DNA of 36,488 nucleotides from Papillibacter sp. (GTDB lineage Bacteria > Bacillota > Clostridia > Oscillospirales > Oscillospiraceae), in the NCBI GenBank assembly GCA_012838125.1, contig DUPW01000070.1, positions 1 to 36,488 of the forward strand. The letters are read 5' to 3'. Both the position numbers and the translations under genes were made by a program. The notes beneath the pieces are model-generated. The model worked only from the letters and a program-made list of their open reading frames with translations. It was not told the DNA's origin and ran no database searches. Of this stretch, positions 28,963 to 33,736 are shown piece by piece; position 1 is the stretch's first letter; every line of letters begins with the position of its first letter.

Positions 28963-29051
28963 GGAGAGGTATCGAAGTGGTCATAACGGGGCTGACTCGA
29001 AATCAGTTTGCGGGCAACCGCACGCGGGTTCGAATCCCGCCCTCTCCGCCA
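28963..29051 (+). tRNA. tRNA-Ser (CGA anticodon), CCA encoded
   Basis: GGAGAGG/CCTCTCC acceptor, anticodon loop CTCGAAA, long variable arm GCGGGCAACCGC, GGTTCGAATCC T-loop. Confidence 0.95.
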
Positions 29052-29201: not shown

Positions 29202-30359
29202 TTATTTTGCCTCTGCGATGCCAAGGCCGGAGAGCATTGCATCTGCGGAGGTCAGCTTGGAGCTGTAGTCCAGATGGGCGTAAATATTTGCTGTGGTAGA
29301 AAAATCGCTGTGACCAAGCCATTCCTGAATCTGCTTCATGGGAACACCGTTTGCGAGCATCAGACTGGCACAGGAGTGCCGGAGATCGTGAAAACGGATG
29401 CGCCGCAGACCGTTTGCTTCCAGAAGCTTCGGAAACTGCTCCGTCACATAATGGGGCTTGATGAGATCACCGATCTCATTGATGCAGACATAACCTGCAT
29501 ACTTCTTGTTGTACGATTTCCCGCAGAGCCGTCTGTTGTTGTCCTGCTCCGCTTTGACGGCAAGCAGCCGTTCCTTGACGAAAGGAACCAGCGGAAGGGT
29601 TCGCATACTGGACTTGGTTTTGGTGGTATCCGCCGCCACGAGAACGTGCTTATTGTCGAGGTTCACCGATGTAACGGTGTGCCGGATGACAATGGTGTCG
29701 TTCTCAAAATCAATGGCATCCCATTTAAGACCGATGGCTTCGCTGCGGCGCAGACCGTAGAAAGCACCGAACAGAATCGGCAGCTCCAGTTTGGTTCCCT
29801 TGGAGACCTCAAAAAGCTTGTTCACTTCGTCCGCATCAAAGAAGCTGCCGACGAAATGATCCTTCTTGGGGCGTTCAACCTTGTCCGCGGGATTCGACGG
29901 GATCAGATCCAGCTTGACTGCGTACTTCAGAGCTTTGTGAATGTTCGCGTGGTAATGGATAACAGACGAAGCACTCACACTCTTCAGTTTGAACAGATAG
30001 AAGTCCTGGATATCCTTTGCGGTCAGTTCCTTGAGGGTGATCCTTCTCTCGCGAAAATAAGGCGCGATGATACGCTTCACGGATGCTGCGTATGAAGCGT
30101 ATGTAGCGACTGCAATAGAGCTTTTCACGACATCAAGCCACTGCTCCATATAATCAGCGAAAAATATGTCTCCCTCTACCGGTTCTTCGGGCTGGAGCTT
30201 CTGACGTTCTTCCATCAGAAAGGCTTCGGCCTTTTTCTTATTGCCTTTCACAGTGAGACCCGTGGCGATCCACTTGGTCTTTCTCTTACCAAAGGCGTCA
30301 TTGTAATTCAGGACGGCATAGTAATAGCCGTTTTTTTCTCGAAGGTGTCCTGCTACCAT
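29202..30359 (-). CDS. Tyrosine-type site-specific integrase
   Basis: GAFYGLRRSEAIGLKWDAIDF, RFHDLRHSCASLMLANG, WLGHSDFSTTANIYAHLD (R-H-R-H/Y catalytic pattern). Confidence 0.96.
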   Translation of the reverse strand: MVAGHLREKNGYYYAVLNYNDAFGKRKTKWIATGLTVKGNKKKAEAFLMEERQKLQPEEPVEGDIFFADYMEQWLDVVKSSIAVATYASYAASVKRIIAPYFRERRITLKELTAKDIQDFYLFKLKSVSASSVIHYHANIHKALKYAVKLDLIPSNPADKVERPKKDHFVGSFFDADEVNKLFEVSKGTKLELPILFGAFYGLRRSEAIGLKWDAIDFENDTIVIRHTVTSVNLDNKHVLVAADTTKTKSSMRTLPLVPFVKERLLAVKAEQDNNRRLCGKSYNKKYAGYVCINEIGDLIKPHYVTEQFPKLLEANGLRRIRFHDLRHSCASLMLANGVPMKQIQEWLGHSDFSTTANIYAHLDYSSKLTSADAMLSGLGIAEAK

Positions 30360-30861: not shown

Positions 30862-31242
30862 TCACGGTGCTTCCACACATTCGGGAATCTGGAGACCAAG
30901 ACTGATTTCGATGCAGTCATCAACGCGTCGCATCTGTTCCTTATCCAGTCTGCCCATATACTTTTTAAATCTGCGCTTGTCGATGGTCTTGATCTGCTCA
31001 AGAAGTACCATTGAAGTGTCGCTGAGACATTTCACATTTTCAATGCGGCAATGCGTAGGCTGTTCGCTTTTCTTCCAAACACGGGAAGTGATCGGAGCAA
31101 TGATAAGCGTTGGACAAAAGTAATTGCCGGCATCGTTCTGGAGAAGAAGTACCGGTCTGGTGCCGCCCTGCTCAGAGCCGACATAGGGGTTAAGATCTGC
31201 AAGATAAATATCGCCACGGCGATAGTTCCAGTTTTCATTCAT
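30862..31242 (-). CDS. MazF/PemK-family toxin
   Basis: YRRGDIYLADLNPYVGSEQGGTRPVLLLQNDAGNYFCPTLIIAPITSR; RBS AGGAGGAAC. Confidence 0.93.
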   Translation of the reverse strand: MNENWNYRRGDIYLADLNPYVGSEQGGTRPVLLLQNDAGNYFCPTLIIAPITSRVWKKSEQPTHCRIENVKCLSDTSMVLLEQIKTIDKRRFKKYMGRLDKEQMRRVDDCIEISLGLQIPECVEAP

Positions 31243-31279
31243 GTTTATGTTCCTCCTAAGAATTGATTGGTATGTAGAT

Positions 31280-31735
31280 GGGCGAGCTGTATGGTGCAGC
31301 TCGCCCTTTGATATCGGACTGGAATGACAAAGTATATCTGCCATTCCCGATGTTGTTATAAGTCATCTACTTCATACAGACTGCCTTACGCTCTCGGCAC
31401 TCGCTTCACGCCTATGCTTAACTTACATAGCCTCTCACCGGATTGCCTGCGACGGTTGTTAACACGCTCGGACTGTCCCTGGTGGGGAGTAGCACCTCTC
31501 CGTCCTCGTCGCCAATCGGGAGCTACCCGACTTTTCCGAAGCTGGCATTGATCGCTCCCCGTCAAACGGATCGTGGCGTACCCTTCGGCTCGGCTCTTAC
31601 TAGAGAGTTCGTTATCTGATAAAGGTATTCAGTTTTCAAGGAACGTTCACCGCATCCGGGATTAAACTATTACCGTCAGCGGTATAGGAAGTGATTTCTC
31701 CCTTCCAGGTGATAGCCGACGAGAAAGCTTTTTTT
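31280..31735 (-). ncRNA. Candidate long structured RNA (boundaries approximate)
   Basis: No credible long ORF; many short inverted repeats including GGGCGAGCTG/CAGCTCGCCC, GGAATGGCA/TGTCATTCC, GTCGGG/CCCGAT, CCGAAG/CTTCGG; GNRA-like loops (GUGA, GAGA) on the minus strand. Confidence 0.55.
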
Positions 31736-32221: not shown

Positions 32222-32226
32222 TTTTT

Positions 32227-32281
32227 GTAATCTCCTTTGAATTTCGTTTCTTGGTTGGCTGGTAAGAAACGAGGAGATTAC
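32227..32281 (-). promoter_or_regulatory. Shine-Dalgarno-sequestering hairpin of the sigma-like gene
   Basis: Minus strand GTAATCTCCT CGTTTCTT...AAGAAACG ...AGGAGATTAC; the SD is the 3' arm. Confidence 0.85.
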
Positions 32282-32439
32282 GGATACTCTGCGAGATAGC
32301 ACTCCCAGCGTTTGTACATAAAAAATCCTTTCTGCCGGGAGCGACAGAAAGGAAAGAAAAAGAGCCGCATGATGGTGGTCATAAAATCCATACCGATAAA
32401 ACAGAGGCTCGTAAAACGAAACTCTGTCTCATGCGGCAT
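32278..32439 (-). CDS. Leader ORF (53 aa; possible internal 13-aa start MYKRWECYLAEYP)
   Basis: MPHETEFRFTSLCFIGMDFMTTIMRLFFFPFCRSRQKGFFMYKRWECYLAEYP*; RBS GGTGAG for the first ATG, AGAAAGGA for the internal ATG. Confidence 0.6.
   Translation of the reverse strand: MPHETEFRFTSLCFIGMDFMTTIMRLFFFPFCRSRQKGFFMYKRWECYLAEYP
32320..32352 (-). terminator. Intrinsic terminator embedded in the leader ORF
   Basis: Minus strand CCTTTCTG-TCGCTCCCGG-CAGAAAGG followed by ATTTTTT. Confidence 0.7.
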
Positions 32440-32502
32440 TAGGATGACTCACCATTCAGCGGCTCCACAGCTCAGCGTCTGTTATTCGATTGTTTGTATC
32501 GG

Positions 32503-32748
32503 TCAGCGGGATAGGATTCTTCTGAGCCGTCTCATGCTCATTACATCGAAAACGGTGATCCTTCCACATTTTTTGCATTTTGATTCGACATGACCGCGTG
32601 TATCCTCGTACACGACAATTGCATTATGCTTACAATATGGGCACTTGATATATCGCGGTTCCTGATTGGCAATCGCTTTTCGTGCCCGTATAATTTTTTG
32701 CTGCATTTCAGCAGAAGGTTCTGTAATTCTGATTTCACATCTGCTCAT
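32503..32748 (-). CDS. Small zinc-ribbon protein
   Basis: IKCPYCKHNAIVVYEDTRGHVESKCKKCGR (CxxC...CxxC); ATGA overlap with upstream gene; RBS GGAGGTG. Confidence 0.75.
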   Translation of the reverse strand: MSRCEIRITEPSAEMQQKIIRARKAIANQEPRYIKCPYCKHNAIVVYEDTRGHVESKCKKCGRITVFDVMSMRRLRRILSR

Positions 32749-33479
32749 GGCCACACCTCCAATGGATCGCGATATTCCGAAAAGGGGCGATCCTCAAGAT
32801 ATCCAAGCTGGCGCAGCCGTATGGTTAAGGCTGTCTTTGACACTTTGAACACATCGCAGATCAACTTGATTGCCAGCCTGTCGATGTAAATGAAGTGATT
32901 CTCATAGCATACCAATTTGCGATTCGGACAATAGCGGACTATCGCATATTTGATTTCCTCCTGCGGCATCAAAATTGCAGCGCCCAGCGCGTTCGCCTGC
33001 CATTCATTCCAGTCCTCTCTGGTTTTCAGATCGCGAAGCGAATACGCACGTCGTTCGGAATACTGCCTTCTGCAAGCGGTTTTGCTCGCGTCACTTTCCA
33101 TCTGGAACAGAATTTGATGCGCACATTCATGGGCCAATGTAAACCTCCGCTTTCCGCAGAGCTTTTTGATTTGCCCCGGTTCTATGAAGCTTGAATCCAG
33201 TAAAACCTGATTTTGCTTCAATGGAATCGTCCTGGTCATCCCATCCGTCTCAACGATATACTCCGTATCGCTGTAAGCGGTTACCCCGCAGAGACTTCCG
33301 TCGGGCGATAAGCGGGTAAAAGACACTTTCAACCCAAGGTATTGACTTGCAAGCTGATCTATTGGTGTGCCGCGAGGTGTAGATCTTGCTGCCTGTCCAT
33401 CTTCTCTGAAAAAGAATCTATTGAAGTCTTTTGTTGTTGCTGCTGCTATGTCTTCGATTTGCGCGTGAGATAAAATCAT
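32745..33479 (-). CDS. ImmA/IrrE-family metallopeptidase-like protein
   Basis: RRFTLAHECAHQILFQMES (HExxH) and downstream NEWQANALGAAILMP. Confidence 0.88.
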   Translation of the reverse strand: MILSHAQIEDIAAATTKDFNRFFFREDGQAARSTPRGTPIDQLASQYLGLKVSFTRLSPDGSLCGVTAYSDTEYIVETDGMTRTIPLKQNQVLLDSSFIEPGQIKKLCGKRRFTLAHECAHQILFQMESDASKTACRRQYSERRAYSLRDLKTREDWNEWQANALGAAILMPQEEIKYAIVRYCPNRKLVCYENHFIYIDRLAIKLICDVFKVSKTALTIRLRQLGYLEDRPFSEYRDPLEVWP

Positions 33480-33736
33480 CAACTGCCCTCCCTGGCTTCT
33501 ACAAACCATTTCTCACCTTCACGAAACAGGAAGGTTTCCTTTCCTTAAATCATTACGGTGTAGCGAATGCCGCCACCGCCGACCTTTTTTGAGGAAGCGC
33601 GGCATTTATACAGTATTTGATCAATCTGATAAACCAGGCCGTTGTCCCAGCGAATCAGGCGTGGATAAAAGACGCCTTCTTTGTCTACGTCTAAATTGAC
33701 AGAGACGTATGCTTTTCTACATGACGCGGTCTGCAT
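33479..33736 (-). pseudogene. Small mobile-element protein interrupted by in-frame TAA (33545-33547)
   Basis: RKAYVSVNLDVDKEGVFYPRLIRWDNGLVYQIDQILYKCRASSKKVGGGGIRYTVMI*GKETFLFREGEKWFVEAREGS*; second stop overlaps the next gene's ATG. Confidence 0.65.

Follow-up and report, generated by a model that had tools for sequence, protein, structure and literature searches.

Before the sigma-like regulator gene of an integrated mobile element in a gut Clostridia genome lies what is probably a leader-peptide translational attenuator with a double lock: a ribosome that slows down or arrests at a Pro-stop would uncover the SD of the regulator gene. We refer to the whole stretch of DNA that was analysed, 36,488 nucleotides in length, as the window; it is one entire contig of a genome assembly comprising 138 contigs, and its features are collected in Table 1. 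The initial annotation had placed a leader peptide and an SD-sequestering hairpin before the sigma-like gene, a proposal that is now strongly supported by peptide conservation and covariation. The regulator seems to be kept off at three levels: transcription termination, initiation on the leader and initiation on the regulator gene itself.

Table 1. Features of the window that bear on the leader and on the element carrying it.
Feature	Positions	Strand	Evidence or remark
tRNA-Ser	28963-29051	+	ARAGORN
Tyrosine integrase gene of the element, adjoins tRNA-Ser	29202-30359	-	PF00589, 4e-27
MazF/PemK-like toxin gene, downstream of the sigma-like gene	30862-31344	-	PF02452, 6e-32
Sigma-like regulator gene, 158 aa	31745-32221	-	PF08281, 1.1e-7
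H3, SD-sequestering hairpin: 5' arm from the leader stop, inner 8-bp stem, 3' arm with AGGAGA	32227-32281	-	
SD (AGGAGA) of the sigma-like gene, within H3	32231-32236	-	
13-codon leader ORF MYKRWECYLAEYP-TAA, class A	32278-32319	-	conserved ending, free third positions
H2, 12-bp terminator-like hairpin followed by T6; 3' arm carries the leader SD AGAAAGGA	32326-32353	-	
H1, long terminator hairpin GGAGCCGC ... GCGGCTCT, then TTTTTCTTT	32361-32466	-	fold of growing transcripts
Zinc-ribbon protein gene, directly upstream of the leader region	32503-32751	-	CxxC...CxxC in translation
ImmA/IrrE-like metalloprotease gene	32745-33509	-	PF06114, 2.5e-6

The leader ORF begins with an ATG at 32319, preceded by its own SD (AGAAAGGA), and closes with a TAA at 32280-32278. 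A 54-codon ORF had first been taken for the leader; its frame is indeed open, but relatives share just the last ~13 codons, and the longer version was rejected because its extension upstream of the 13-codon ORF was not found in them. Searching the leader region against Rfam 15 returned nothing at gathering score. Homologues of the sigma-like protein were gathered from whole genomes and viral contigs (the sample consists of Clostridia relatives and viral contigs plus small numbers of plasmid and phage records), and their leaders were read without assuming a peptide. Half of the homologues with upstream sequence (19 of 38) carry the ending W-x4-A-[KER]-Y-P-stop, which we call class A and which is exemplified by MISRWEPYIAEYP, MPLWLCYIAKYP, MRDGWYCYIAKYP, MKKAFYWQPYIAKYP and MKKQWTAYAARYP, each followed by a stop. 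W, Y, P and the stop are invariant across these 19 leaders, and the position of A is occupied by A in 18 and by T in one. Third bases, by comparison, are close to random, with entropies of 1.94 bits for the Ala codons and 1.85 bits for the Pro codons, and the stops are divided among TAG (seven), TAA (six) and TGA (six). Free third positions together with the use of all three stops indicate that selection has acted on the peptide as translated and on there being a stop, whichever of the three it is. Under uniform codons, and ignoring composition, the chance of a class A ending is ~1.5e-6 per leader region. Most relatives have leaders of 12-17 aa, and an ATG yielding 11-17 aa is missing in 12 of 42 class A leaders. 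Codon-level conservation and the position of the SD in H2 point to a translated short leader ORF with an SD of its own, as expected of an attenuator, and translation of the leader and control by hairpins are, on evolutionary grounds, strongly supported.

Invariant W and YP codons might also be expected if shortage of an amino acid, or of its charged tRNA, caused pausing at W, Y or P codons. The leader, however, holds a single W codon and no runs, the conserved A and [KER] would go unexplained, and a ribosome paused at W, eight codons before the last sense codon, would leave H3 closed. We regard this form of attenuation as very improbable.

A second ending occurs at the same place in 14 of the 38 homologues: R[SAG]PP, usually CR[SAG]PP, written in varied codons and with the same codon-level signature at R, P and P (class B). 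The remaining five have neither motif. The start codon is unclear in many class B frames; where it is clear, the stretch up to PP mostly comes to 15-18 residues. When the three labels (class A, class B, neither) are placed on the tree of the 38 proteins, five changes are required, compared to 15.7 in shuffles; the labels cluster, yet they form no single clades, and few deep branches of this tree are well supported. That homologous leaders carry, in one position, either of two arrest-type endings unrelated to each other is, in our view, the best single argument that selection has favoured arrest and not mere coupling.

The class A ending is also found beyond the homologues. Scanned with the pattern, 295 genomes gave 26 matches, spread over 23 of them, whereas the reversed pattern gave none. 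In 24 of the 26, an SD-hiding hairpin and a regulator-like gene come next, the gene being mostly from sigma-like families (not all with a Pfam match) and in one case of the Cro/CI type. Given that these loci were picked by their peptide, they were excluded as evidence of peptide conservation. At L095, the class A leader stands before a Cro/CI-type repressor gene, not a sigma-like gene. Among viral contigs, the class A scan yielded 12 stretches, nine of which combine peptide, SD hairpin and regulator-like gene, with regulator families that include some without detectable similarity to the gene of the window; the other three were discarded as chance matches inside genes. A narrow second class A scan of viral contigs added one new contig, in which no leader was visible by eye. 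For class B, the permissive pattern gave at least ten convincing viral contigs, with other sigma-like genes, among the matches listed, most of which were rejected as chance. Recurrence before unrelated regulator genes points to a widespread and, as it seems, undescribed switch for mobile DNA. None of the open-access papers searched describes these peptides, class A included, and the peptide strings matched unrelated proteomics papers only.

Folding of growing transcripts gives H1 as a single hairpin of ~106 nt and about -58 kcal/mol. The "longer nested stem" noted earlier (GCCGCATGA/TCATGCGGC) is ~23 kcal/mol less stable than this single hairpin and is not favoured, and a terminator/antiterminator switch in H1 based on the same pairing was rejected on that account. 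The terminator-like hairpin (CCTTTCTG/CAGAAAGG plus T6) is present at 32353-32320 as originally reported, but it precedes the real leader, and its 3' arm masks the leader SD. Since both terminators lie upstream of the leader, a ribosome translating the leader cannot relieve them, which speaks against the suggestion that it might defeat the terminator. All arm sequences quoted in the initial annotation were recovered at their positions, including the 10-bp pairing of GTAATCTCCT (32281-32272) with AGGAGATTAC (32236-32227), which places the TAA in the 5' arm of H3, and the inner stem CGTTTCTT/AAGAAACG. Compared to chance, folding stability corresponds to a z-score of -7.6 for the whole leader and of -5.6 for H3 by itself. 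Of 37 class A loci with a recognisable leader SD, 29 have this SD paired within a hairpin that lies upstream and is often trailed by a T run; beyond H2, one more terminator-like hairpin precedes 43 of 49 class A leaders (the rule applied was crude and had no control).

The frequency of terminator-like hairpins before leaders would also suit a model in which H1, H2 and H3 merely block read-through expression and a promoter inside the leader drives the regulator. Such insulation leaves the conserved peptide unexplained, and no promoter-like site was found on the same strand between H1 and the sigma-like gene, although this is a weak test; we judge it to be quite improbable.

The position of the leader stop relative to H3 is nearly constant. 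The first anti-SD base lies 1-3 nt past the stop in 18 of the 19 homologue-derived class A loci and in nearly all pattern-derived ones, and despite this fixed register the inner H3 stems differ wholly in sequence and length. Mean z-scores for H3 are -4.7 in the 19 homologue-derived and -4.9 in 25 pattern-derived loci. Pairing of the SD alone is frequent in shuffled leaders (13.7 of 19 expected), so that a count of paired SDs set against shuffles did not discriminate and was dropped; the evidence lies in stability, register and covariation instead. In the larger class A subgroup, the stop codon itself lies within the H3 stem, with UAA facing UUA, UGA facing UCA or UUA (via G-U), and UAG facing CUA. 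This stop-codon pairing was matched in three of 2000 permutations, and the second stop base forms 11 AU, seven GC and three GU pairs, with no broken pair. An alignment of 21 leaders displays two-sided changes at six of the seven outer H3 pairs, a number reached in none of 500 shuffles, and pairing drops to 24-67% in controls with slid alignments. In class B leaders, the PP codons touch or overlap the base of the 5' arm. Joint absence of covariation and peptide conservation had been named at the outset as grounds for abandoning the model; both are clearly present. Covariation indicates a conserved SD-sequestering hairpin, the second element expected of an attenuator, and the evolutionary record shows, at the level of sequence, the peptide ending, H3 and the register between them.

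Near-constant spacing between the stop and the anti-SD is precisely what plain translational coupling would require; under that model, H3 would open for every short ORF whose stop lies at its base, regardless of the peptide encoded. Coupling alone, however, predicts random peptides, whereas W, A, Y and P are kept at the amino-acid level with free third positions, and it does not account for the fact that an unrelated ending, R[SAG]PP, is conserved in that position as well. We consider it unlikely, though worth keeping in mind. Conservation of the peptide could likewise reflect a trans-acting microprotein of 13 aa to which H3 is unrelated; this we find scarcely conceivable, given that the stop keeps a constant distance of 1-3 nt from the anti-SD, that it covaries with H3, and that the peptide travels with H3 before different gene families.

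For the attenuator that we favour, we propose the following sequence of events. By default, transcripts from the upstream operon would run into the terminator H1 and the terminator-like H2, with H2 masking the leader SD and H3 masking the regulator SD; with termination at H1 and H2 and both SDs hidden, the sigma-like gene would thus be off. If polymerase passes H1 and H2, a ribosome could translate the 13-codon leader up to the Pro-stop, the stop being at the base of H3, and its footprint over the 5' arm would open H3 and expose the regulator SD. When Pro occupies the P site and a stop codon the A site, the ribosome shields roughly a dozen nucleotides downstream of the stop, and in class A leaders these dozen nucleotides are the anti-SD arm. 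The conserved ending (W at -9, A at -4, K/E/R at -3, Y at -2, and P) might slow termination, either intrinsically or through a small molecule or a state of the ribosome, and slow termination would keep H3 open for long enough to permit synthesis of the sigma-like protein. The early guess of stalling at a terminal Pro-stop agrees with the conserved A-[KER]-Y-P-stop. Both release factors free a peptide slowly when its last residue is Pro, as discussed in PMC7246954; the conservation of residues beyond Pro, namely W, A, K/E/R and Y, argues for specific contacts of the nascent chain over slow release alone. In other elements, CR[SAG]PP, a motif of the elongation-arrest type, might do the same job. 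We infer nascent-chain arrest, opening of H3 by the ribosome footprint and switching-on of the element from this arrangement.

Leader-peptide attenuation is an already known kind of control. In erm-type attenuators (ErmCL, ErmBL), a ribosome on a short leader ORF opens a hairpin that masks a downstream SD (PMC5118997). The leader described here shares the short ORF and the downstream SD in a hairpin, but it differs in its peptide, in its Pro-stop ending, in the location of the stop in the hairpin arm, in having a regulator rather than a resistance gene downstream and in having no known drug response. Neither an IFVI-type nor an R/K-x-R/K stall motif of the erm type occurs in the leader, which ends in A-[KER]-Y-P-stop instead. 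Spacing and residues differ from those of TnaC and of the NAP/NSP-stop peptides (PMC10987492): against W12-x11-P24-UGA in TnaC, class A leaders have W-x7-P (W eight residues before P) and use UAA, UAG and UGA alike. Further differences are that class A leaders come without a signal sequence and that control would be translational, not Rho-dependent. MsrDL, a leader of 6 aa (MYLIFM), arrests at its stop codon in the presence of erythromycin with both release factors blocked (PMC10314930). It resembles the present leader in being very short and may serve, by analogy, as a precedent for stop-codon arrest in class A; MYLIFM is absent here, however, and MsrDL senses a macrolide and controls a transcription terminator, whereas the terminators precede the leader in our case. 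Ribosome-linked attenuation in a mobile element is also known from the tet(M) region of Tn916, where it is relieved by tetracycline or other translation inhibitors (PMC9632896), but there it is transcriptional and the leader is unrelated.

Class B resembles the RAPP-like arrest peptides (SecM, ApdA, ApdP and the RQH family) in its R-[SAG]-P-P motif. RSPP, RGPP and RAPP favour arrest, RSPP having been reported as arrest-permissive, and leader ORFs with RAPP or RGPP have been reported as absent from Bacillota (PMC12992588). Class B would therefore extend the range of this family, and would do so without a secretion signal: none is shown 30 or more residues upstream, the downstream genes encode sigma-like regulators and not sec or yidC products, and the motif forms part of an SD hairpin arm. 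In total, the arrest peptides would gain two groups, and one of these, CR[SAG]PP, would come from a phylum reported to lack RAPP and RGPP leader ORFs.

The set of minus-strand genes in the window, together with the integrase beside tRNA-Ser, is an integrated mobile element, and the contig stops short of its other border. Following tRNA-Ser, the order on the minus strand is integrase, MazF-like, sigma-like, zinc-ribbon and ImmA/IrrE-like; a Cro/CI-type repressor gene and a second ImmA/IrrE gene point away from this set. The zinc-ribbon protein has weak Pfam and NCBIfam matches only, and its gene probably shares an operon with the sigma-like gene. The sigma-like protein carries a sigma-70 region 4 helix-turn-helix at its C-terminus (PF08281, 31.8 bits at a cut-off of 25.7), scores below the cut-off for NCBIfam TIGR02937, and has no Pfam or NCBIfam match to region 2 (core binding, -10 recognition). 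Its AlphaFold model (pLDDT 79) has an N-terminus made up of a helical pair only, and the best-fitting structures are sigma region 4 domains, none of them below an E-value of 0.001. A search of plasmids revealed no close relatives of this protein.

For the little-understood departure of integrated elements from the chromosome in gut Clostridia, a conserved arrest-like peptide before the regulators of many unrelated elements provides a short, portable handle that could be used to screen for the signal; the 30-nt pattern also offers a means to annotate controlled regulators. More tentatively, and with less than even confidence, we suggest that mobile elements of Clostridia and their relatives share an interchangeable cassette, composed of a terminator, a hairpin-locked leader, an arrest peptide and an SD hairpin, which could read the state of the ribosome through at least two independent nascent-chain codes, gate whichever regulator starts the programme of the element, and in this way make excision or transfer depend directly on stress in translation or on some small molecule.

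Several further observations emerged from the same loci. The MazF/PemK-like gene belongs to a cluster with members in 11 neighbourhoods and lies downstream of several relatives of the sigma-like gene; there, as in the window, the toxin-like gene stands alone, with no adjacent antitoxin identified. Between the sigma-like and MazF-like genes of the window, positions 31420-31700 are non-coding, GC-rich and structured-looking, with no match in Rfam. At L029, L039 and L040, and more weakly at L007, GCCGTATGAAGC before H1 is complementary to GCTTCATACGGC after H1, possibly a further switch across the terminator. Three loci with neither motif (L009, L013 and L016) have a long terminator-like hairpin almost abutting the regulator SD and no SD hairpin by eye, and perhaps rely on transcriptional attenuation. 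In L027, L034 and L237, an A AAA AAA heptamer marks the opening of the class B frame, and A7 is also found in L035, L052, L054 and L057; at three class B loci, an ORF with a strong SD enters the class B frame in the phase of a -1 slip, hinting at programmed frameshifting, whereas the other four do not fit. Finally, the sigma-70 gene encoding WP_002326549.1 adjoins bcrABD in Enterococcus plasmids, and its family occurs in 33 Enterococcus plasmid records. Its class B leader (positions 7790-8000 of L237, NZ_CP110291.1, and the same in L239) ends in ...IDPRCRSPP at the base of an SD hairpin, and the locus provides a cultured model for the class B motif.
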